From an uncultured Bacteroidota bacterium (GTDB taxonomy: Bacteria > Bacteroidota > Bacteroidia > Chitinophagales > Chitinophagaceae): DNA of 59,281 nt. The number at the start of each line of letters is the position of its first letter. The stretch's first letter is position 1. Where the stretch lies: the NCBI GenBank assembly GCA_903839875.1, contig CAIMDZ010000190.1:1-59281 (forward strand). The letters are read 5' to 3'. Position numbers and translations under genes: made by a program. Positions 49,150 to 59,260 of this stretch are shown here, piece after piece. Below the pieces are notes generated by a model. That model saw only the letters and a list, made by a program, of their open reading frames with translations. It had not been told where the DNA came from and ran no database searches.

Positions 49150-49364
49150 TGTTTTTTGGAATCCTCAAATATATATTAATAAGCCGCTATTCCCGGTTAA
49201 CCAATCGTTAATGTCCCGTGCTCATTCCATTCTCTGCAACATGAAATCACAATTCGGAACCTGACTGATTTTTATCACAGAAAGGCTGATTACCATCATT
49301 GCTGCCACTTTTCGCTTAATTTAATTTGCGTCGTGTTTCGAATAAAACTAATAATACCCACGTC

Positions 49365-50135
49365 ATGAAAAACGAAAAAAGAACATTCCGGTCTATATCA
49401 ATTATTGTATTGCTGCTTGCAATCTTACTGCTTACCGGGTTCAGTTGGTATGCAGTGAACAAACAGAATAATGAAAACCAGCTATCCGGTAAAAAAGAGT
49501 TGCAAGTCAACATGGTATCGCCAAAACCACCAGTTGAAACACCTAAACCTGTTACAGACAGCTCGGTTGCACTCAAAACTGATTCTGTGTCTGCGGTACA
49601 AACTGCAAACGTAGGAGACAGCGTTCATAGCAGCATCGTCAAAGTAAAACATCATAAACTTATAATAGAAAAGAAAGAGATGAACAATGAAATTATTGAG
49701 TATGATAAACCTGTATCAGAAATACCTGCTCGGGAAAAATACGCAAAATGGAGGTTCATTATTAAAAAAGACATGATCTGTGTTTATCCCGGAGATAAAT
49801 GGCAGAATGTTTTTGTTGTTTACCCGGATACTAAAACCGGCAAAGAAAACAGGCATATTCTCAAACCTGATTTTCCGGGCGTAGTTTACCTTGCCGCTGA
49901 AATAGGCAATATAGACCTGAATAATGTGAACAACAATGTACTCATTGAAAAATATACAGCTTCTGAAACAGATCAGAGCATGTACTTTTTTATATCGTTG
50001 AAATCCAATCCTGCATTTATCATTTTCGGCGATTACGAAGACCCGCAGAACCAATACATTTTTCAGAATAACCGGTTATCCGGTTATGAATCAATCCCGG
50101 GGTCAGAAAAAATGTTTTCTCTAAATTCCAAATGA
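49365..50135 (+). CDS. Membrane-anchored protein coupled to the response regulator
   Basis: This protein of about 256 residues (start MKNEKRTFRSISIIVLLLAI) has a single N-terminal transmembrane helix, a Pro/Thr/Val-rich linker and a C-terminal globular part with strands (WRFIIKKDMICVYPGDKWQN, then AEIGNIDLNNVNNNVLIEKY). The topology places the globular part in the periplasm. Its stop overlaps the start of the response-regulator gene (ATGA), so the two are coupled and it may be part of the signalling pathway, for example an accessory sensor. Family not recognised. Confidence 0.7.
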   Translation: MKNEKRTFRSISIIVLLLAILLLTGFSWYAVNKQNNENQLSGKKELQVNMVSPKPPVETPKPVTDSSVALKTDSVSAVQTANVGDSVHSSIVKVKHHKLIIEKKEMNNEIIEYDKPVSEIPAREKYAKWRFIIKKDMICVYPGDKWQNVFVVYPDTKTGKENRHILKPDFPGVVYLAAEIGNIDLNNVNNNVLIEKYTASETDQSMYFFISLKSNPAFIIFGDYEDPQNQYIFQNNRLSGYESIPGSEKMFSLNSK

Positions 50136-50809
50136 CCAATATGAGACTATTATTAGTGGAAGATGAAAGCGGGATCTCAGGCTTTCTAAAAGAAGGCCTG
50201 GAAGAAGAATCCTTCGCGGTTGATGTCGCATATGATGGCAAACAAGGCCTGCAAATGGCAATGGACAACATTGAAAATTACGATTTGATCCTGCTTGATT
50301 GGATGTTACCCGGAGTTAGCGGAATTGATATTTGCAAAAGTATACACAAAGAAAACAAGGATGTGCCAATTATTTTTATAACTGCCAAAGACACCTCAGA
50401 TGACGCTGTTCATGCCTTTGAGTCAGGAGCCACCGATTTTATGCGCAAGCCATTTTCTTTTGAAGAGCTGCTTGCACGCATCCGGGTTTTATTGAGAACA
50501 AAATCAACGCAACAGGATAGCCTGGTCTACGAAGAAATTGTGTTGAACACTGACGCCCATACCGTTACAAAAAAAGGGAACCCCATAGAATTAACCCAGA
50601 AAGAATTTGCCCTGCTTGAATACCTGCTCCGCAATGAAGGCAAAGTTTGCCGGCGCACAAGAATAATAGAAAAAATATGGGATGTTCATTTTGATAAAGA
50701 TACTTCTGTCATAGATGTTTACATTAATTCCCTTCGTAAAAAATTAGGCGCACTGGGCGCTAAATCGTTTATCAAAACGTTGCGTGGCGTCGGCTACAAA
50801 GTAGAATAA
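50132..50809 (+). CDS. OmpR/PhoB-family response regulator
   Basis: This 225-residue regulator has a receiver domain with acidic pocket (VEDE), phospho-acceptor Asp56 in LILLDWMLPG, the conserved Thr/Lys region (FITAKD, then FMRKPFSFEELLARI). A C-terminal winged-helix DNA-binding domain follows (ELTQKEFALLEYLLRNEGKV to the RGVGYKVE end). The ATG at 50132 overlaps the upstream stop; a second ATG at 50141 is the alternative. The histidine kinase follows 208 bp later. Family members often bind 11-bp-spaced direct repeats, which are found at three promoters downstream. Confidence 0.93.
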   Translation: MTNMRLLLVEDESGISGFLKEGLEEESFAVDVAYDGKQGLQMAMDNIENYDLILLDWMLPGVSGIDICKSIHKENKDVPIIFITAKDTSDDAVHAFESGATDFMRKPFSFEELLARIRVLLRTKSTQQDSLVYEEIVLNTDAHTVTKKGNPIELTQKEFALLEYLLRNEGKVCRRTRIIEKIWDVHFDKDTSVIDVYINSLRKKLGALGAKSFIKTLRGVGYKVE

Positions 50810-51017: not shown

Positions 51018-52400
51018 ATGAAACTGCATTTTCAGAACCGGGTCGCATTTTTCAATACGGTTGCCGCCAGCATTATTATTGCCTTTGTCTATTGCATCAT
51101 CTATATGGTGGTTTTTGTTGCTGATCACGGTCACCTCAATAAGGATATCAGGAAAGAAAGAGATTTAGTTTTAAATAACCTCGAATATTCCGGCGACAGT
51201 ATTATTATTAACAAACTAGCCCAATGGCAATTACGGGAAAAAGAATCATTCGAAGCCAATCCCGTATTCATACAGATATTAAACAGGAACGGAAATACAA
51301 TCTATCGTTCGGGCAACCTTCTGCACTACTCCTTAATAACCAATAACGCCACAGTTGAATCCTTTTTCAATGTGCTGATTGAAAATGAACATTTCAAACA
51401 AGGCCAGTTTATTGTGTACAACCGTCAGGGAGTAAGAACAGGTATTGTCCTTGTTGCTATTTCCCGCGAGGAATCATTTATTGTACTCAAAACCCTTATA
51501 CTTATCCTGTGCCTTTCCTATCCCCTGTTGATTATCGGATTGTATTTTTTCATTTTATTCTCTGTATCAAAGGCTATATCACCTGTACGAAACCTGATAA
51601 AGAGCGCATCAGCAATCAATGATACCAATATTAACTTACGTATGCCATTGCCCGCAAAAGAAGATGAAATTTTTCAACTGGCTACAACAATAAACGAGCT
51701 CCTCGACCGCATTGAAAAAAGCATGAAAAATCAAAAGCAGTTTACTGCTGATGCCAGTCACGAAATGCGCACACCGCTTACGGCAATACGCGGTATACTT
51801 GAAGTGTTGGTCCGTAAAACACGCGATCCGGATCAATATGAAAAAGGTATAAAGAAGGCAATTATTGAAGTAGATCGTATGCATTTATTAATGGAACAGT
51901 TACTCCAGCTCGCACGTTTAAGTGCCGGGGTTGTCCCTGTCAAACAAGTACCTGTATTTCTCTACAAAATGCTTACTGAACTAGAATATAAATGGAAAAG
52001 AAAGCTGAATGAGCAAAATATTAGTCTCCATTTAAATGTTCCAAAGAATGCACAGGTACATTCAGATAATGTTTTGTTGGAACTGATAATTGAAAACCTG
52101 GTTAGTAATGCTATCAAATACGGAAGATTAAACGGCAATATTTATATCTCCTGGCAGGAGAAAAATAATACGCTCGGCATTACCGATGATGGAATTGGTA
52201 TTTCGTCCGGACAGCTCCCGCATCTTTTCGAACGGTTTTACAGAACTGATAATTCCCGCAATTCAAGGGTACCCGGAAACGGCCTTGGACTTTCCATTGT
52301 AAAAAAAATCAGCGATCTGCTCAAAATTAATATAAAGGTGATGAGCAACGAGGGTAAAGGAACCTCCTTTACCCTGCAATTTTCTCCGCTCCGGAATTGA
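51018..52400 (+). CDS. Sensor histidine kinase, cognate of the regulator
   Basis: This 460-residue membrane kinase has transmembrane helices near 13-35 and 160-185 flanking a small periplasmic sensor domain. HAMP follows, then HisKA with phospho-acceptor His248 in ADASHEMRTPLTAI. The ATPase has N-box ENLVSNAIKYG, G1 box DDGIGI, F-box LFERFYRTDNS and G2 box GNGLGLSIV. All catalytic boxes are intact. Layout resembles metal- or envelope-stress-sensing kinases such as CusS, but the signal is unknown. A degenerate copy lies about 0.4 kb downstream. Confidence 0.93.
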   Translation: MKLHFQNRVAFFNTVAASIIIAFVYCIIYMVVFVADHGHLNKDIRKERDLVLNNLEYSGDSIIINKLAQWQLREKESFEANPVFIQILNRNGNTIYRSGNLLHYSLITNNATVESFFNVLIENEHFKQGQFIVYNRQGVRTGIVLVAISREESFIVLKTLILILCLSYPLLIIGLYFFILFSVSKAISPVRNLIKSASAINDTNINLRMPLPAKEDEIFQLATTINELLDRIEKSMKNQKQFTADASHEMRTPLTAIRGILEVLVRKTRDPDQYEKGIKKAIIEVDRMHLLMEQLLQLARLSAGVVPVKQVPVFLYKMLTELEYKWKRKLNEQNISLHLNVPKNAQVHSDNVLLELIIENLVSNAIKYGRLNGNIYISWQEKNNTLGITDDGIGISSGQLPHLFERFYRTDNSRNSRVPGNGLGLSIVKKISDLLKINIKVMSNEGKGTSFTLQFSPLRN

Positions 52401-52756
52401 CAAAATTATCCTTCACTTTTTCACATTGAGGATCACAAAATAAATCCTGCGAAGTTGGTCAAACTAAATGGTCATGAATAGTACATTACAGGTAATTAGT
52501 AGTCCTGACCGGAACAAGGTCCCGATTTTTTTTCGGGGTGCAATTTCGTTTATAGTTAGCAAGGCAATGTCATTAAATTAAGGAAGCCCAGCGGGCATCA
52601 TCATGCATAACCGCGGGTGAAATCCGCGGTAAATGTGTAATATACACGAACCCCTGCAGCGTACCGCCTTAGCTTTAGCGGTGGCGCAAGGTATTCCCCC
52701 TTTTATGCAGCGTTAAAATCTGGTAATCAGAAAGATCTCACCTGTTTGGTATCAAT
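52401..52756. other. Intergenic region with a partial MITE-like element
   Basis: No gene is seen. It contains a left-end copy of the MITE-like repeat (52563 to about 52670) and leads into the phased operator upstream of the pseudokinase gene. Confidence 0.5.
52563..52670. repeat. MITE-like element, partial copy
   Basis: The left terminus GGCAATGTCATTAAATTAAG is followed by hairpin AGCCCAGCGGGC, hairpin ACCGCGGGTGAAATCCGCGGT and CACGAACCCC, in the same order as in the full copy at 54427. The right terminal repeat is absent. Confidence 0.65.
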
Positions 52757-52813
52757 TTAAGCCAATATTAAGAATACTCAAACCCTCCTTTAAGGGTAGC
52801 AATAGCAATTTTG
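52757..52813 (+). promoter_or_regulatory. Phased 11-bp operator/promoter 1 (pseudokinase)
   Basis: TTAAG boxes start at 52757, 52768 and 52790, with a degenerate box (CAAAC) at 52779, all on an 11-bp grid. AATAGCA follows at 52801, one further step, and the -7 element CAATTTTG at 52806, 16 bp after the start of the last box. The same layout recurs at two other promoters. Transcription should start near 52820. Confidence 0.65.
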
Positions 52814-53608
52814 TCTGGTGAAGTAATAATATTAAAAAAAATTGTGCCGGAAAACGAAAATGAAATATTGCAGGTTTCAGAAAAGGTTAATTCGTTATTA
52901 AAACGGGTAGAATACGGTATCCGGGAACAAAAACAGTTTTCTGAAGATGCATCTCAGGAGATGAAGACATTTCTTACCGCAATCAGGGGCATGCTTGAAG
53001 TCCTGATTCGCAGAAACAGGGATGTTGCAAGTTATGAAACCAAAATAAAAGAAACCATCTTCCACGTTGACCTCATGACTGCACGGTTAGATCAGGCATT
53101 CCTCCTTTGCTGGTTAAACTCCGGCAAAGTATCCGGCAATAATGAAAGCATAAATTTACTGAGCCTGCTCGGTATCCTCGAAGATAAATGGCTTTACCGT
53201 ATGTATGCAAACAGGATGAGCCTGCACATTAATATACCCAGCGACCTCGAAATTATTTCTGATTGTTATCTCCTTGAAATTATTCTTGATCAGATTATTG
53301 GCGATGCTGTTATGTTCGGCAGAAAATGGGGAAACATTTATGCCGGTTGGAATGATCGTTCCGGTACGCTTTCTGTTTCTAATGATGGCTATGGTATTTC
53401 ATCCGGTCACCAAATCCTTTTAATGGAACAATACAAACAGTTGGAGTCTTCAGAAAATCCGGCCTGCCCCGGCAATGGTCTGGGCATGGCCATAGTGATG
53501 AAGGTAGCGGCATTGATGAACACTCATTTAAGCTTCAACGCTCACGAAGGCAAAGGAGCTGCATTTACCATACAATTTTTCAATGCAAAAAACTTAAGCA
53601 GATCTTAA
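52811..53608 (+). CDS. Sensorless pseudo-histidine kinase (lost phospho-acceptor His)
   Basis: The open frame gives 265 codons from a TTG at 52811; as this TTG lies in the -7 element, the GTG at 52844 is the likelier start. It aligns along its length with the HAMP end, HisKA and ATPase domains of the neighbouring kinase but has no sensor or transmembrane part. Key residues are changed: the H-box reads ASQEMKTFL (His to Gln), the N-box DQIIGDAVMFG (Asn to Asp), the G1 box NDGYGI (Asp to Asn). G2 GNGLGMAIV is kept. No stop interrupts it. It may act as a regulator or decoy for the kinase or regulator, or be an early pseudogene. Confidence 0.7.
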   Translation: MSGEVIILKKIVPENENEILQVSEKVNSLLKRVEYGIREQKQFSEDASQEMKTFLTAIRGMLEVLIRRNRDVASYETKIKETIFHVDLMTARLDQAFLLCWLNSGKVSGNNESINLLSLLGILEDKWLYRMYANRMSLHINIPSDLEIISDCYLLEIILDQIIGDAVMFGRKWGNIYAGWNDRSGTLSVSNDGYGISSGHQILLMEQYKQLESSENPACPGNGLGMAIVMKVAALMNTHLSFNAHEGKGAAFTIQFFNAKNLSRS

Positions 53609-53650
53609 GGATGAATAAAGGTTTGTTAAAGGTTCACAATAGCATCTTTG
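53594..53650 (+). promoter_or_regulatory. Phased 11-bp operator/promoter 2 (secreted subunit gene)
   Basis: TTAAG, TTAAG, TAAAG and TAAAG start at 53594, 53605, 53616 and 53627, exactly 11 bp apart. AATAGCA begins at 53638 on the same grid and CATCTTTG at 53643. The first two boxes overlap the last codons of the pseudokinase gene. The leader to the ATG at 53728 is about 70 nt. Confidence 0.75.
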
Positions 53651-53727
53651 CACTATCAAATTTGATGAACACGTTTAAACGAACAGAGCATTTTTAAAAC
53701 ATTTTTAAACAATTAAAAACAATCAAA

Positions 53728-54324
53728 ATGAAAAAGATCTTAATGACTGCAGCCATTGCAATAGCATGCTTCGCAGCAAACGCACAAACTGGACCACAAA
53801 CAGTTTCCAGTATTAACCTGGGTATTGATGTACAGATTCCTGACATTATCGTTATGAGCAGAGTTGATAACATGTCAACTACCGCAACTTATTTGAATTC
53901 CAATGATTTTGATTGGTGTGAACATGTTGGCGGATGGGGATATTTCCAATTCAAGGTTAGGTCAAATCGCCACTTTGATGTTACTACCGATATCGGATCA
54001 TTCGGATTTACTCCGGTTTCCGGTGTTGCTTATAATTCCGGCATTGATATCAATAATCAGATGACTGCTGCCGATTTCTCATGGCATCTTTGCTATGCTG
54101 GTGAAGCTGGTGAATCTGGAGTATTGCCTCTGCTCGCAGGAGCAACTGATCCTCATGCAGTAGGTTCTGCTGGCCAATGGTGGTCTTTCCCCGGAACAGT
54201 GTTTACAGGCGCTGACAATGGCCCGGACCAGGAATGGAATATGCAATTCTTATCCTGCGCAGGTTGGAAATATACTGGTGGCGACTATACAGCTACTATT
54301 ACATTAACTGCAACCCAGAATTAA
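53728..54324 (+). CDS. Secreted beta-rich protein, possible surface-fibre subunit
   Basis: This 198-residue exported protein has signal peptide MKKILMTAAIAIACFAANAQ. The mature part is beta-rich, Gly/Ser/Thr/Asp-rich and contains few charges, with a C-terminal strand pair WKYTGGDYTATITLTATQN. The protein encoded at 58748 ends WNYKGGNYYQDLTFTLSSQ, so the two share a C-terminal signature. Small all-beta proteins of this kind in Bacteroidota are often surface or fimbria-like (DUF4402-like); that assignment is inference. It is under the phased operator and followed by a terminator. Confidence 0.65.
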   Translation: MKKILMTAAIAIACFAANAQTGPQTVSSINLGIDVQIPDIIVMSRVDNMSTTATYLNSNDFDWCEHVGGWGYFQFKVRSNRHFDVTTDIGSFGFTPVSGVAYNSGIDINNQMTAADFSWHLCYAGEAGESGVLPLLAGATDPHAVGSAGQWWSFPGTVFTGADNGPDQEWNMQFLSCAGWKYTGGDYTATITLTATQN

Positions 54325-54345
54325 TACCTGAATAGTGGTAAAAAA

Positions 54346-54377
54346 ATAGGTCCTCCTTCAGGGGGACTTATTTTTTA
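54346..54377 (+). terminator. Terminator of the secreted subunit gene
   Basis: ATAGGTCCTCC pairs with GGGGGACTTAT (wobbles included), followed by six T, 20 bp after the stop codon. Confidence 0.7.
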
Positions 54378-54426
54378 TACCTGGCGCACGGCAATGTCAT
54401 TACTTAAGGAAAAATGACCACGAAAG

Positions 54427-54575
54427 GGCAATGTCAATTAGTTAAGCTAGCCCGAAGGGCTTTCCTGTGAATAGCCGTGGGTGAAACCCACGGAAAACAT
54501 AGAATATAACACGAACCCCGGAGGGGTTTCCCGTGCCTTGGTAACACTATCATCGCTTAACTAAATGACAATGGC
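54427..54575. repeat. MITE-like element, full copy
   Basis: The element of about 149 bp has terminal inverted repeats GGCAATGTCAATTAGTTAAGC and GCTTAACTAAATGACAATGGC (one mismatch region). Inside are nested hairpins AGCCCGAAGGGCT, CCGTGGGTGAAACCCACGG and CGAACCCCGGAGGGGTTTCCCG. A further isolated left terminus (GGCAATGTCATTACTTAAGG) lies at about 54390. It encodes no protein. Confidence 0.75.
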
Positions 54576-54675
54576 CTATAACCAGGGGCACAATACAATT
54601 TGGTTTAGCTGAAATAAAAAATGTGTGCATTATCAAAGTCTGATTGATAGAAAAACTTTAGCAAAACTTAATCTT

Positions 54676-54732
54676 TTAAGCAAAACTTAAGAATAGATTA
54701 AGGTTGGTTAAAGAATAGTAATAGCACCTTTG
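54676..54732 (+). promoter_or_regulatory. Phased 11-bp operator/promoter 3 (stress protein and barrel operon)
   Basis: TTAAG, TTAAG, TTAAG and TAAAG start at 54676, 54687, 54698 and 54709, exactly 11 bp apart. AATAGCA follows at 54720 on the same grid and CACCTTTG at 54725. Box number, spacing and the 16-bp offset to the -7 element are the same as at 53594. Confidence 0.75.
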
Positions 54733-54774: not shown

Positions 54775-55320
54775 ATGAAAGCAGCAATTGGAGTTTACGA
54801 AGATCACGATAACGCATATAATGCCGTAAAGAAATTAAAAGATGAAGGGTTCCCTGTAAAACAAATTTCAATAATTGGTTTTGCCGGTACCGAGGTGATA
54901 GATAATGAAATGCATATCTCTAAACATGGGGAATTAACCTACCAGGGCGTTGTTACAGGAATTACATTAGGCGCTGCAGCCGGCATTTTAACAGGCATTG
55001 GGCTGATTGTTATACCCGGCTTCGGGGCGCTATATGGAGCCGGCGCACTCATTGGCGCTATGGCTGGCGCCGACATTGGTTTACTTGGTGGAGGTATTAC
55101 CACTTTGCTCATCAATTACGGCCTGCATGAAAAAATAGCCGAAAAATATGAAAAGGAATTGGTAGAGGGTAAGTTCCTTGTAATTGCAAGCGGCAGCCAT
55201 AATGAAATAGATTTTGCATTGGCTGTTCTCAGTAAACATGATACCCATACCTCACTCGAAACCTACCGGAAAAATACCGCCCCGGCCACAAAGGATATTT
55301 ATAGTTTACCCGTGCAATGA
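54775..55320 (+). CDS. General-stress-type protein with Gly-rich membrane segment
   Basis: The protein has about 181 residues (ATG at 54775; the GTG at 54754 lies close to the transcription start). An N-terminal domain of about 60 residues (MKAAIGVYEDHDNAYNAVKK) resembles the YflT/general stress protein 17M fold. Two hydrophobic glycine-zipper segments follow (GVVTGITLGAAAGILTGIG, LYGAGALIGAMAGADIGLLG), then a second copy of the N-terminal-like fold (FLVIASGSHNEIDFALAVLS). Probably membrane-associated. It is likely cotranscribed with the barrel gene 49 bp downstream. Confidence 0.75.
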   Translation: MKAAIGVYEDHDNAYNAVKKLKDEGFPVKQISIIGFAGTEVIDNEMHISKHGELTYQGVVTGITLGAAAGILTGIGLIVIPGFGALYGAGALIGAMAGADIGLLGGGITTLLINYGLHEKIAEKYEKELVEGKFLVIASGSHNEIDFALAVLSKHDTHTSLETYRKNTAPATKDIYSLPVQ

Positions 55321-55369: not shown

Positions 55370-58144
55370 GTGATGAAAACATTAAAGAAGAATATCATGA
55401 CCACAGCCAGGGTGGTGGTTTTGATCTTTTGTTTGCTGTATGCATGCACCACAAGCGGCAAACAGGATAATTACTTTTGTACAGTTAAGTACAAGGATTC
55501 CATTACCATAGATCGCCATTCAAGGATCTTATACAATAATGTGTTTATTACTAACACTTACAGGCAACCTATTACGGTCCTCATATCAGTTAACGGGCCA
55601 CAAGGATGGCGTTTATTATCCGATGGAGAAATTACTTTATCACTTGCACCGGGGGAAAAGCAAATATTGCCGCTGGCATTTATGAAAATGACAAATGCCA
55701 TAGCAACATGGGCACCGGTTGACATTAATATTCAATTACAAAACACCTCCGATAATGCCCAATACCGGTTTTTTATAAAAGCAAATTCTTTAAGCCGCTT
55801 CAGGATGGTTTCCAAAGTAGATAATATAGAAATGCTTACCAGGGATCAAAAAATAATTATCCCTTTAAAAATCACCAATTCAGGCAGCATACCTGGTATA
55901 TATACCCTTACCTGGAAATGCCCGGGCTTGGATATAGATGAAAAGGTTTCCATTCTTTTGGAAGCGCAAAAAGATACCGAATACATTTACTCCCGGAAAA
56001 TACCTGCAGGTGTGTGGCCTACCCTGAAAAATGAAAAATTGGAATTGGTAATATCAGATACAGCAGGCAATACATATAATCATATTTTCAATGTGTATAA
56101 AGTAGGCAGTGAATTAAAAATGCACGCATCACGGTTTCAAACATTTCCGCTTACACTACAGGGTGGAATTTTAAATTCCGGCAGGGATTTCACTTATTAT
56201 GGCGGATTACATGGCGAAATCACTTTTGATAAAGATAATAGGTTGAATTTCTCTTACAGGTCAAAACAATTAGGTATTAGTACTGAATTTCAAAGAAATA
56301 TATGGATGGTAGAATACTTCCATCAAAGGTGGTCGTATTATGTCGGAACAACTCAAGGATCCAGGTTTTTTGCCATTAATGGTACTGGAGCCAAAGTAAG
56401 ATATAAATGGAAAGAACATGGAGAGATTAGCTTAAGCGGCTCTTTGCACGACCAACAATATTATTATGCAGGCTATTATGCCAATGATAATCTTACGGCC
56501 GATTTAAAATACGCTTTAAAAAGGATTGTTTTTTGGCATACTGCAACTTCAAATTTCGACCTTACTTATCATCTTAACAGCTATATTTTTTGGAACAATG
56601 TTCAGTTACTGAAGAATAAAACCACAATTCTGGAAGTGACTGGAGCCATAGGATTGGATCATAGTACAAACCAAATAGCAAATGCACCAAAGGAACTATG
56701 GGGCAGTTCACTAGGTTATTTATTCAATTACCATAAAAATAAATGGAGTATTGCATCCAATTTGGAGGAAAATTCAAACAATTACCCCGGCTTAAGAAAA
56801 GGGCTTCGCTTCCAGAGCCATAATATTAACAGGCAGTTTGGTAAAGTCCCCTTGGGTCTTTTTTATGAATCAAACTATACGCAGAGTAATTATTTCAGAG
56901 ATACCATTTACCGTTCCGACGTTTTTACTTATAACATCACCAAATATGGCATCAGGTCCGGTTGGTATGGTAAGAATATGGGATTTGGATTAAGCTTAGG
57001 TATAATGAGCCAGGAAGGAATAGGTAATTCTATAGGACCCAAGTACCCCTATACAGATTTTAACTATTCCTACAGTAAGAGAAAATTTCATTTACTTTTC
57101 CGTTCATTAACAGGCTATACCAACAAAAATGGAAACGTTAGGGAAGATGTGTTTGTAACCAGTTCCAACATTCACATTTACAATACACATTTTGGAGTAC
57201 AGGGCTTTTATGAGCGCACTCCGATTGTTAATCCAATGGAATTAAAACCTATTACTGGCTTTATTGAAACTTTGAATTTTATTACTTACATGAATTTTAA
57301 GATCCGGAAAACCTTCGGTGGGCAGTTAAGATATAGTATTTCCAAATCACTTTATGATAATTCAGTACAATCCTACATCGGTGGCAATTTGAATTACCAT
57401 AATGAAAAGAAAGGTTTGGCAATTGATTTCTTTGGCAATATCCCATTGCAAAAAACGAATGATATGATCCCCGGTTTCAATAGGCAATATCTAAGCCTTA
57501 CCGTAAGTAAAAGATTCAATTTTCCCGTTTTTGTAAAAAGAAAATATTATGATCTGAAAGTGGTTGCTTTCTTCGATGAAAATAATAATGGTATACGGGA
57601 TAATAATGAAAAACTCTTATCAAATGTTGCTATTGAATTAAATGGCTTGCTCTTTCTTACTGACGAACAAGGATCCTTTTCTTATGAAAATATTGAGAGA
57701 GGAATTTATACCGTTGATCTGCATAATGTAAAGAATATTAAAGGCATCATCCCCTCCTCTGGTTTTATTCAGAAGATAAATGTTACGGAAAATACTACCT
57801 ATGAAATACCATTTAAGAAAAGCAAACTGATCAGCGGCAGTATTAAAGTAATCCTGGATTCACTAAGTCCGGCTAATTTTACACCTGATTACCTTAAATT
57901 GACTGCAACAGATACCGCGGGTACAGTTTATATGACGGCAACAGATGAATTGGGCGATTATTATTTTAATCTTCCTTCCGGCATTTATTCATTATCACTC
58001 AACGCCAGGGCTTTCACTAATTTCATTAAACCACTGAAAATATCTTACAAAATTGATCTTGTGAATAATAATGAAGCAATAGTAGTCTTTGAAATTGACC
58101 AGAAAAACCGCCAGATAAAAATGAAAACCTTTAAGATTGATTAA
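55370..58144 (+). CDS. Outer-membrane barrel protein with Ig-like and SdrD-like domains (usher-like layout)
   Basis: The 924-residue exported protein has an N-terminal hydrophobic signal (MTTARVVVLIFCLLYAC), possibly a lipoprotein. Two Ig-like/NEW3-type domains (about 35-260; VFITNTYRQPITVLISVNGP, KITNSGSIPGIYTLTWKCPG) precede a long barrel region (about 260-715) of alternating strands. The C-terminus has an SdrD-B/carboxypeptidase-regulatory-like domain (VVAFFDENNNGIRDNNEKLL) and a second small beta domain. Ig domains, then barrel, then a small C-terminal beta domain recalls an usher with fused chaperone-like modules, but no usher homology is claimed. Follows the stress-protein gene; a strong terminator ends the unit. 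Confidence 0.7.
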   Translation: MMKTLKKNIMTTARVVVLIFCLLYACTTSGKQDNYFCTVKYKDSITIDRHSRILYNNVFITNTYRQPITVLISVNGPQGWRLLSDGEITLSLAPGEKQILPLAFMKMTNAIATWAPVDINIQLQNTSDNAQYRFFIKANSLSRFRMVSKVDNIEMLTRDQKIIIPLKITNSGSIPGIYTLTWKCPGLDIDEKVSILLEAQKDTEYIYSRKIPAGVWPTLKNEKLELVISDTAGNTYNHIFNVYKVGSELKMHASRFQTFPLTLQGGILNSGRDFTYYGGLHGEITFDKDNRLNFSYRSKQLGISTEFQRNIWMVEYFHQRWSYYVGTTQGSRFFAINGTGAKVRYKWKEHGEISLSGSLHDQQYYYAGYYANDNLTADLKYALKRIVFWHTATSNFDLTYHLNSYIFWNNVQLLKNKTTILEVTGAIGLDHSTNQIANAPKELWGSSLGYLFNYHKNKWSIASNLEENSNNYPGLRKGLRFQSHNINRQFGKVPLGLFYESNYTQSNYFRDTIYRSDVFTYNITKYGIRSGWYGKNMGFGLSLGIMSQEGIGNSIGPKYPYTDFNYSYSKRKFHLLFRSLTGYTNKNGNVREDVFVTSSNIHIYNTHFGVQGFYERTPIVNPMELKPITGFIETLNFITYMNFKIRKTFGGQLRYSISKSLYDNSVQSYIGGNLNYHNEKKGLAIDFFGNIPLQKTNDMIPGFNRQYLSLTVSKRFNFPVFVKRKYYDLKVVAFFDENNNGIRDNNEKLLSNVAIELNGLLFLTDEQGSFSYENIERGIYTVDLHNVKNIKGIIPSSGFIQKINVTENTTYEIPFKKSKLISGSIKVILDSLSPANFTPDYLKLTATDTAGTVYMTATDELGDYYFNLPSGIYSLSLNARAFTNFIKPLKISYKIDLVNNNEAIVVFEIDQKNRQIKMKTFKID

Positions 58145-58747: not shown

Positions 58748-59260
58748 TTATTGTGAGGATAAGGTGAACGTTAAATCCTGGTAGTAATTCCCCCCCTTAT
58801 AATTCCATGAAGGGTCTACCCTCAGATCTATATAAAAATTGCTTGCTCCTGTTGTACTACTACCAGTCAATAAATTTTGAGGCGTAACTGAAAGGCTTAT
58901 AAAATTTGATGTAGTGCTTTCTTTTACACTCATAATGCTAACAGGCATATTATTGGAAGGGTCTTGTGACGCTGAAGAGAAAAATGGAGTCTTAGCCATA
59001 ACACTGACCTCCCAGGGTTCCTCGCTGATTACTGTTATTTTGTAAAATCCCGGATATGTTTTTCCGGAATTCAGATCATTTTCGTTCAAAAATTGTATCA
59101 CTTGATTCATAGGAATAGTTACACTCATGGTCGCGGGGCTATTAATACTATTGGTTATAATTGAGCGTCTTGGCACATTTTGTTGTTGTGCCTGTTGAGC
59201 ATCGCTATACACAACGACATAAATAATGCAGCATAAAAATAGTATCTTTGGTAATTCTTT
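58748..59260 (-). CDS. Second secreted beta-rich protein of the fibre-like family
   Basis: From the GTG at 59212 there are 154 residues, but the frame upstream encodes a good signal peptide (KILFLCCIIYVVVYSDAQ), so the true start lies near the window end; no ATG is seen in frame, and an upstream stop lies near 59270. The mature part is Ser/Thr/Asn-rich and all-beta (YKITVISEEPWEVSVMAK) and ends WNYKGGNYYQDLTFTLSSQ, like the protein at 53728. Its promoter is outside the window. Confidence 0.6.
   Translation of the reverse strand, partial: KELPKILFLCCIIYVVVYSDAQQAQQQNVPRRSIITNSINSPATMSVTIPMNQVIQFLNENDLNSGKTYPGFYKITVISEEPWEVSVMAKTPFFSSASQDPSNNMPVSIMSVKESTTSNFISLSVTPQNLLTGSSTTGASNFYIDLRVDPSWNYKGGNYYQDLTFTLSSQ

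Follow-up and report, generated by a model that had tools for sequence, protein, structure and literature searches.

Three arrays of TTAAG-type boxes, P1, P2, and P3, in a 59,281-nucleotide stretch of DNA from an uncultured Chitinophagaceae bacterium (the window, which is the entire contig C190 of a genome of 5,292,638 bases) are very probably operators of the OmpR/PhoB-family response regulator encoded from position 50132 and, judged by sequence comparison, would switch their promoters on by class II activation. All three have boxes at 0, 11, 22, and 33 from box 1 and the TTTG of a −7 element at 53 (Table 1), and this geometry is conserved beside orthologues of the same regulator in other genomes. 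Bacteroidota promoters differ from those of Escherichia coli, the primary-sigma promoters of the phylum having a −33 consensus and a −7 element, TAnnTTTG; to our knowledge, few response-regulator operators have been defined in this phylum.

Architecture of the three arrays

The box coordinates given in a preliminary description of the window were all re-read in the sequence and are correct, and its statement that AATAGCA begins 11 bp and the −7 element CANNTTTG 16 bp after the last box holds for P1, P2, and P3 alike. Boxes 1 and 2 of each array are an exact match to the direct repeat TTAAG(N)6TTAAG. Relative to TAnnTTTG, the −7 element CANNTTTG keeps the A and the TTTG, with the first T replaced by C. 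A TTG stands 17 bp (P2) and 18 bp (P3) before the −7 octamer, where it may be the source of some basal activity, and P1 alone is devoid of any −33-like element.

Table 1. Window coordinates of the arrays and of the genes discussed
Feature	Position	Strand	Details
P1	52757..52813	+	Boxes 52757 TTAAG, 52768 TTAAG, 52779 CAAAC (weak), 52790 TTAAG; AATAGCA 52801; −7 CAATTTTG 52806-52813; predicted start ~52818
P2	53594..53650	+	Boxes 53594 TTAAG, 53605 TTAAG, 53616 TAAAG, 53627 TAAAG; AATAGCA 53638; −7 CATCTTTG 53643-53650; predicted start ~53655
P3	54676..54732	+	Boxes 54676, 54687, 54698 TTAAG, 54709 TAAAG; AATAGCA 54720; −7 CACCTTTG 54725-54732; predicted start ~54737
Response regulator, OmpR/PhoB family	50132..50809	+	Pfam PF00072 and PF00486; candidate binder of the arrays
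Cognate histidine kinase	51018..52400	+	HAMP, HisKA, HATPase_c; intact phospho-His (DASHEMR); hydrophobic N-terminus read from sequence
Soluble degenerate kinase paralogue, presumed P1 target	52844..53608	+	254 aa from GTG 52844
198-aa protein, presumed P2 target	53728..54324	+	Signal-peptide-like N-terminus (read from sequence)
YflT-like (heat/stress) protein, presumed P3 target	54775..55320	+	181 aa if the start is ATG 54775; Pfam PF11181, E 8.3e-10 (read from GTG 54754)
924-aa protein with SdrD_B-like domain	55370..58144	+	Pfam PF17210

The 11-bp period is specific. When frames of four slots were counted in the window, overlapping frames included, 26 frames with at least two boxes were obtained at period 11 compared with 0–9 at periods 7–10 and 12–15, and 7 frames with at least three boxes compared with none at any of those other periods. 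In the whole genome, the exact pattern TTAAG-N6-TTAAG-N36/37-TTTG has three matches, all of them P1–P3, against one for the reversed control and about 0.11 expected from base composition. Likewise, TWAAG-N8-TAGCA-NN-TTTG matches exactly at P1–P3 only, with seven further matches at one mismatch. Tolerating up to two mismatches raises the total to 112, hardly more than the 104 of the reversed control, which marks the looser matches as background. The genome-wide scan that the preliminary description had proposed as a check on its motif returned the exact pattern nowhere but at P1–P3, not scattered at random positions. A search of the genome for further regulon members with a 17-letter pattern at up to three mismatches found only P1–P3 as exact matches and nothing better than two mismatches beyond them, none of which was accepted; the pattern totals were below those of the reversed control (22+18 vs 24+35). 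The regulon of this genome appears to be local, consisting of three promoters.

A matrix trained only on 35 sites of other genomes, described below, scores P3 at 52.4, P2 at 43.8, and P1 at 39.0 bits, and at a threshold of 12 bits it lists nothing in the window besides P1–P3 and their own other-register versions. In five Markov-1 simulations of the window, nothing reached 8 bits. An origin of the arrays by chance or from low-complexity sequence was ruled out by the period, genome-wide, and reversed-pattern controls.

Recurrence of the operator beside regulator orthologues

The regulator was searched in 99 relatives, 396 genomes of the order, and 395 genomes of the class, and a genome was called a carrier at E ≤ 1e-75. 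Carriers amount to 18 of the 396 order genomes and 14 of the 395 class genomes, the own genome being counted in both; among the 35 genus members in the set of 99 relatives, the own genome alone reaches this level. The comparison set comprised 29 other carriers and G234, included on the basis of its kinase, giving 30 genomes and 31 regions (G115 is represented on two contigs) with 545,903 bases, the window being excluded. Nine further regions with less similar regulators or other-register arrays (L102–L109, L146) were kept out of the pair, offset, and matrix counts; four of these (L102, L104, L105, and L106) had arrays in a simpler scan.

In the 31 regions, TTAAG pairs occur 70 times at a spacing of 11 bp, compared with 0–9 times at spacings of 8–10 and 12–15 bp, and TTTG follows box 1 at an offset of 52 (20 sites) or 53 (15 sites), every other offset between 16 and 89 being represented by 5 sites at most. 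Box positions 3 and 4 (offsets 22 and 33), which played no part in selecting these 35 sites, match at least four of the five letters of TTAAG in 18/35 and 20/35 sites, respectively, and no off-grid position between −13 and 49 does so in more than 2. The four-box operator of the window thus re-emerges from other genomes at positions that were free to vary in the search.

A leave-one-genome-out matrix yielded 41 sites of at least 30 bits in the same regions and none in the reversed sequence. Of these, 14 are at most 750 bp 5′ of the regulator gene, 26 are at most 800 bp 3′ of the kinase gene, and one is elsewhere (G726); all 41 are on the coding strand of the regulator and kinase genes. An array stands beside the regulator in 28 of the 30 genomes, 26 of which have a site of at least 30 bits and two of which (G236 and G390) have exact-pattern sites below 30 bits. 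The arrays accompany the regulator subfamily across 12 families.

The pattern is enriched in genomes with the regulator. In the 31 carrier genomes, including the own genome, the exact pattern has 45 matches compared with 10 for the reversed pattern, and of these 45, 38 are no more than 10 kb from the regulator or, in G115, on the contig with the kinase fragment. Among 96 relatives that fall short of the carrier threshold, no enrichment is seen (9 matches vs 31 reversed). A stricter pattern that includes linker letters finds 8 sites in the 395 class genomes, in 6 genomes that are all among the 14 carriers, and its reversed control finds none; as its letters derive from sites of the carriers themselves, matches there are expected, and the weight lies on the absence of any match in the 381 class genomes without the regulator. 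Seven of the eight sites are at the regulator locus, and the eighth is in G747. The proposal of the preliminary description that the regulator encoded at 50132 reads the boxes is supported, at the level of sequence, by the 28 of 30 genomes and by the lack of enrichment in noncarriers.

The site in G747 (G747:C1:1126726-1126781, L238) is outside the main locus and precedes a second response-regulator frame, the extreme N-terminus of which is outside the same open frame. A genome below the regulator threshold, which may have a more distant regulator, contains two matches to the exact pattern that also show letters resembling boxes 3 and 4 (G064:C132:6369 and G064:C171:1950). G040 and G049 contain 35 and 10 matches, respectively, of a three-box TTAAG/TAAAG pattern at 11 bp, overlaps and both strands being counted. 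TTAAG arrays in other registers, with TTTG away from 52/53, are present in G010, G014, G020, G024, and G027; those of G027 and G020 (L020 and L021) are three-box arrays upstream of TAGCTTTG. Such other-register arrays of relatives probably belong to other regulators, of the same kind in the case of G027 and G020.

The preliminary description had also defined a compact regulon motif that included AATAGCA. The 11-bp boxes and the fixed register of that motif recur in other genomes; AATAGCA was rejected as a general part of the operator, being present at that offset in 0 of the 35 exact sites elsewhere. The 31 regions contain AATAGCANNTTTG three times: G423 and G355, which are of the same family, each have it in the site 3′ of the kinase, and G162 has a copy with no array. 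Both of these kinase-3′ arrays also have the sequence GCAATAGCA in common with P1. On this distribution, AATAGCA is best described as a family-level extra.

The regulator and its kinase

The product of the gene at 50132 scores over the cut-off for both a receiver domain (PF00072, 100.1 bits) and a winged-helix Trans_reg_C domain (PF00486, 91.4 bits). Among the NCBIfam models listed, the best is TIGR01387, the CzcR/SilR/CopR heavy-metal family (211.5 bits, under the curated cut-off of 279.2), and the best model for the kinase is TIGR01386, a heavy-metal sensor kinase, also under its cut-off, so that the CzcR/CusR/SilR systems are the best-scoring families for the pair with both scores below the curated thresholds. 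The recognition-helix stretch (V/I)IDV(Y/F)(I/V)N is common to 30 aligned orthologues of the regulator, and the named relatives of the regulator come from Hanamia, Ginsengibacter, and Lacibacter, the last a member of the Chitinophagaceae (Bacteroidota). Upstream, at 49326-50135, lies a 269-aa open reading frame (ORF) of no assigned family, with a weak GspB-like N-terminus that scores far under the cut-off; because its stop codon overlaps the start of the regulator gene, the two are probably in one operon.

Proposed mechanism and alternative explanations

In the mechanism that we favor, kinase 51018 would phosphorylate regulator 50132, and the phosphorylated regulator would then occupy all four TTAAG-type half-sites, which follow one another head to tail every 11 bp; two dimers in tandem would be the simplest arrangement. 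If the −7 octamer occupies −12 to −5, the position mapped in Flavobacterium, boxes 1–4 would fall at −61/−57, −50/−46, −39/−35, and −28/−24, and boxes 3 and 4 would stand where a −33 element is expected and would keep RNA polymerase on a −7 element, CANNTTTG, that is weak by itself. The composition of the 35 sites elsewhere suggests that these are activator-dependent promoters. A TTG 17–21 bp before the octamer is present in 1 of the 35, compared with a background of 11.2%, and is absent from the other 34; the first two letters of the octamer are TA in 13, CA in 10, GA in 7, and AA in 5. Class II activation is suggested by the combination of a weak promoter and boxes that cover the site of the absent −33 element. 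The earlier claim that the boxes act in place of a −33 element agrees with P1 and with those 34 sites and fits P2 and P3 less well, given their TTG at 17 and 18 bp.

Several observations weigh against this assignment. The TTG of P2 and P3 is at a plausible −33 spacing, box 3 of P1 (CAAAC) is poor, and P1–P3 do not fit the stricter pattern. No array lies 5′ of the window's own regulator, compared with 14 such sites elsewhere. Two genomes of the comparison set, G226 and G234, lack a convincing site by pattern or matrix, and in G236 and G390 the sites stay under 30 bits. The matrix behind the 41 sites was trained on sites selected for TTAAG-TTAAG-TTTG, and the conservation of those letters is partly by choice, which does not apply to the linker or to boxes 3 and 4; near kin of a left-out genome also remained in the training set, so that the leave-one-out test is not fully independent.

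Three alternatives were weighed. The arrays could be operators of the same regulator that serve as repressor sites, keeping polymerase off the −33 region, as the boxes overlap the expected polymerase site and the TTG of P2 and P3 is usable at its spacing. We regard this as improbable: the frequency of a −33 TTG at the sites elsewhere is below background, so that most of these promoters would be weak without help, and the same layout in Pseudomonas, with pentamer 4 on the −35 element, activates. That another OmpR-family regulator reads the arrays, their closeness to 50132 being a coincidence of gene order, is very improbable even though 62 candidate stretches of the regulator family are listed in the own genome (29 of them scored) and TTAAG 11-bp arrays in other registers exist in relatives; the arrays follow this particular subfamily in 12 families, all 41 sites being in the orientation of its genes, and the off-locus site of G747 is itself 5′ of a response-regulator frame. 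The view that the arrays are unbound AT-rich tracts produced by chance or by repeats, for which one could cite the position of P1 and P3 3′ of copies of an 82-nt element (see below) whose duplication could have spread the arrays, has a negligible probability in view of their rarity in the own genome, their recurrence beside the regulator, the spacing and offset peaks in the 31 regions, and the matrix result of 41 sites against none.

Genes behind the operator in other genomes

By kinase tree and gene order, the carriers fall into two subgroups. In the closer subgroup (9 genomes, regulator 62–68% identical), the order in six genomes (G270, G423, G355, G402, G761, and G513) is array, short ORF, regulator, and kinase, and the one short ORF scanned has a DUF2231 domain. 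The regulator of G246 has the array immediately in front of it, the contig of G356 stops 280 bases short of the regulator, and in G115 an array 5′ of the regulator was not found. At 9 loci, a second array lies close to the end of the kinase gene, at positions ranging from 3 bp upstream to 135 bp downstream of the stop codon, and precedes a lipoprotein-like ORF (90 aa in G356); a rubrerythrin domain is present in all three such ORFs that were scanned (L132, L134, and L136). In the other subgroup, 12 genomes have an exact-pattern array 5′ of the regulator, and in 14 such an array precedes an ORF of ~1440 aa, the size of an RND pump. This ORF has the same start across those 14 of the 30 genomes, and the one scanned contains ACR_tran and OEP domains; its product is presumably CzcA/CusA.

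Elsewhere in the class, the operator stands before the two-component genes themselves and one neighboring effector gene. In the window, neither the ~1440-aa type nor the rubrerythrin type of target adjoins P1–P3; here the kinase-3′ promoter would have been multiplied to three, one each in front of the soluble dead paralogue of the kinase, a secreted protein, and the YflT-like stress gene. P2, which overlaps the stop codon of the kinase paralogue, resembles the second array at the kinase stop elsewhere. P1 resembles the kinase-3′ site of orthologous loci, with the GCAATAGCA of the G423 and G355 arrays. The simplest history would be that the kinase was duplicated together with its 3′ promoter and that the catalytic motifs of the copy then decayed.

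The kinase paralogue

The start of the kinase paralogue was set at GTG 52844, in agreement with a 254-aa database entry. The protein keeps a recognizable ATPase-like domain, including the G2 box, and has lost the residues that mark an active histidine kinase: the phospho-acceptor His of the H box is replaced by Gln (DASQEMK where the kinase has DASHEMR), and both N-box Asn residues and the F box are gone (ILDQIIGDAV vs IIENLVSNAI of the kinase). The frame is open at only 41% identity to kinase 51018. Neutral substitution of the kinase segment down to that identity, in a simulation that leaves out indels and any selection before decay, produced a mean of 7.4 stop codons, and 0 of 200 runs remained free of stops, which makes a dead pseudogene unlikely. 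In the kinase tree the paralogue groups with the window kinase (96/93) on a long branch of 1.65, with a warning from the tree tool that the placement of so long a row is unsure.

Searches for an orthologue of the paralogue found none: a set of genome contigs (genome_contigs) gave 1 distant kinase locus (19% identity); 20 proteins matched were the query itself and 19 other kinases; and 37 of the 396 order genomes had a match, of which the strongest not in the own genome was 39% identical in a frame of kinase length. One tentative idea, which we consider rather doubtful, is that the paralogue is a feedback pseudokinase, induced via P1, that would dampen the signal or redirect it by binding to either the regulator or the kinase, having been born with a 3′ promoter by the kinase duplication and being itself followed by the promoter copy P2.

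Other genes and repeats near the arrays

The 198-aa P2 product has no Pfam or NCBIfam match and three distant relatives of 182–183 aa; its predicted structure is unusable, with a mean predicted local distance difference test (pLDDT) score of 41.5. A C-terminal G-x-Y pattern is common to this protein (53728-54324) and to the product of 58748-59212 on the minus strand, and it is possible that the two are surface subunits beside the 924-aa SdrD_B protein. The latter is perhaps cotranscribed with the YflT-like gene, from which it is separated by 49 nt; a search for relatives of solved structure gave three at E 0.4–0.5, none of them convincing.

An 82-nt repeated element with an inner hairpin is present in copies at 52563-52644, upstream of P1, and at 54427-54508, upstream of P3, that are 71% identical. 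Arms that are 87% complementary lie at 54425-54447 and 54555-54577.

Relation to known operators

The operator letters have a close counterpart in Pseudomonas aeruginosa. The BqsR (CarR) study describes the repeat TTAAG(N)6TTAAG in clusters of up to five pentamers and, at the PA14_04180 promoter, four pentamers of which the last lies on the −35 element and numbers 3 and 4 are critical for strong expression (PMC4682146). Pentamer, spacing, and the four-pentamer promoter are the same as in P1–P3, a likeness of operator letters. BqsR differs in its proteobacterial −35 promoter, variable cluster size, and ferrous-iron signal; operators of the P1–P3 type stand in a fixed 52/53 register with respect to a TAnnTTTG-like element, and a −33 element is normally absent.

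The PmrA (BasR) box consists of two CTTAAG-like half-sites 5 bp apart that are bound head to tail (PMC3973317). Measured against a CTTAAG-like first half and an XTTAAT-like second half at 5 bp, P2 (CTTAAG-N5-CTTAAG) and P3 (TTTAAG-N5-CTTAAG) are near matches, and the second half in P1 is ATTAAG; PmrA sites are described there as pairs, compared with four half-sites here. Regulator 50132 scores 152.5 bits with the PmrA model, the cut-off of which is 330.

AgrR of Cupriavidus, a relative from the heavy-metal family, binds the inverted repeat ATKACANNNNTGTMAT (PMC7380067), in contrast to the TTAAG direct repeats of P1–P3. PhoP of Riemerella anatipestifer, like regulator 50132 an OmpR-type protein of the Bacteroidota, has the genome-wide motif TTTAACA, likened to the ArcA motif, at hundreds of sites and binds upstream of its own operon (PMC9603813); it differs in these letters, and the part of that paper at hand describes no four-box register. 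For the −7 element, mapping of transcription starts in Flavobacterium psychrophilum places the octamer at −12 to −5 (PMC9723704). The A and TTTG of the primary-sigma −7 element are present in P1–P3 and in all 35 sites elsewhere, TTTG there by selection; the difference lies in the octamer, which begins with TA in 13 of the 35 only, and in the −33 TTG that 34 of them lack.

The half-site and the 11-bp period are thus already known from BqsR and PmrA. Within the literature searched, which covered few subscription papers, no description of this operator in Bacteroidota was found, and its use in this phylum, the constant 52/53 register, and this regulon are new in that scope. The analysis gives the register of an operator, points to the regulator that probably reads it, and predicts 41 sites in other genomes in addition to P1–P3, and it makes activation without a −33 element testable with one protein and short DNA probes. 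The comparison across genomes suggests that one operator, having served efflux-pump and rubrerythrin genes, was re-used in this organism for surface or stress genes and for a dead copy of the kinase.

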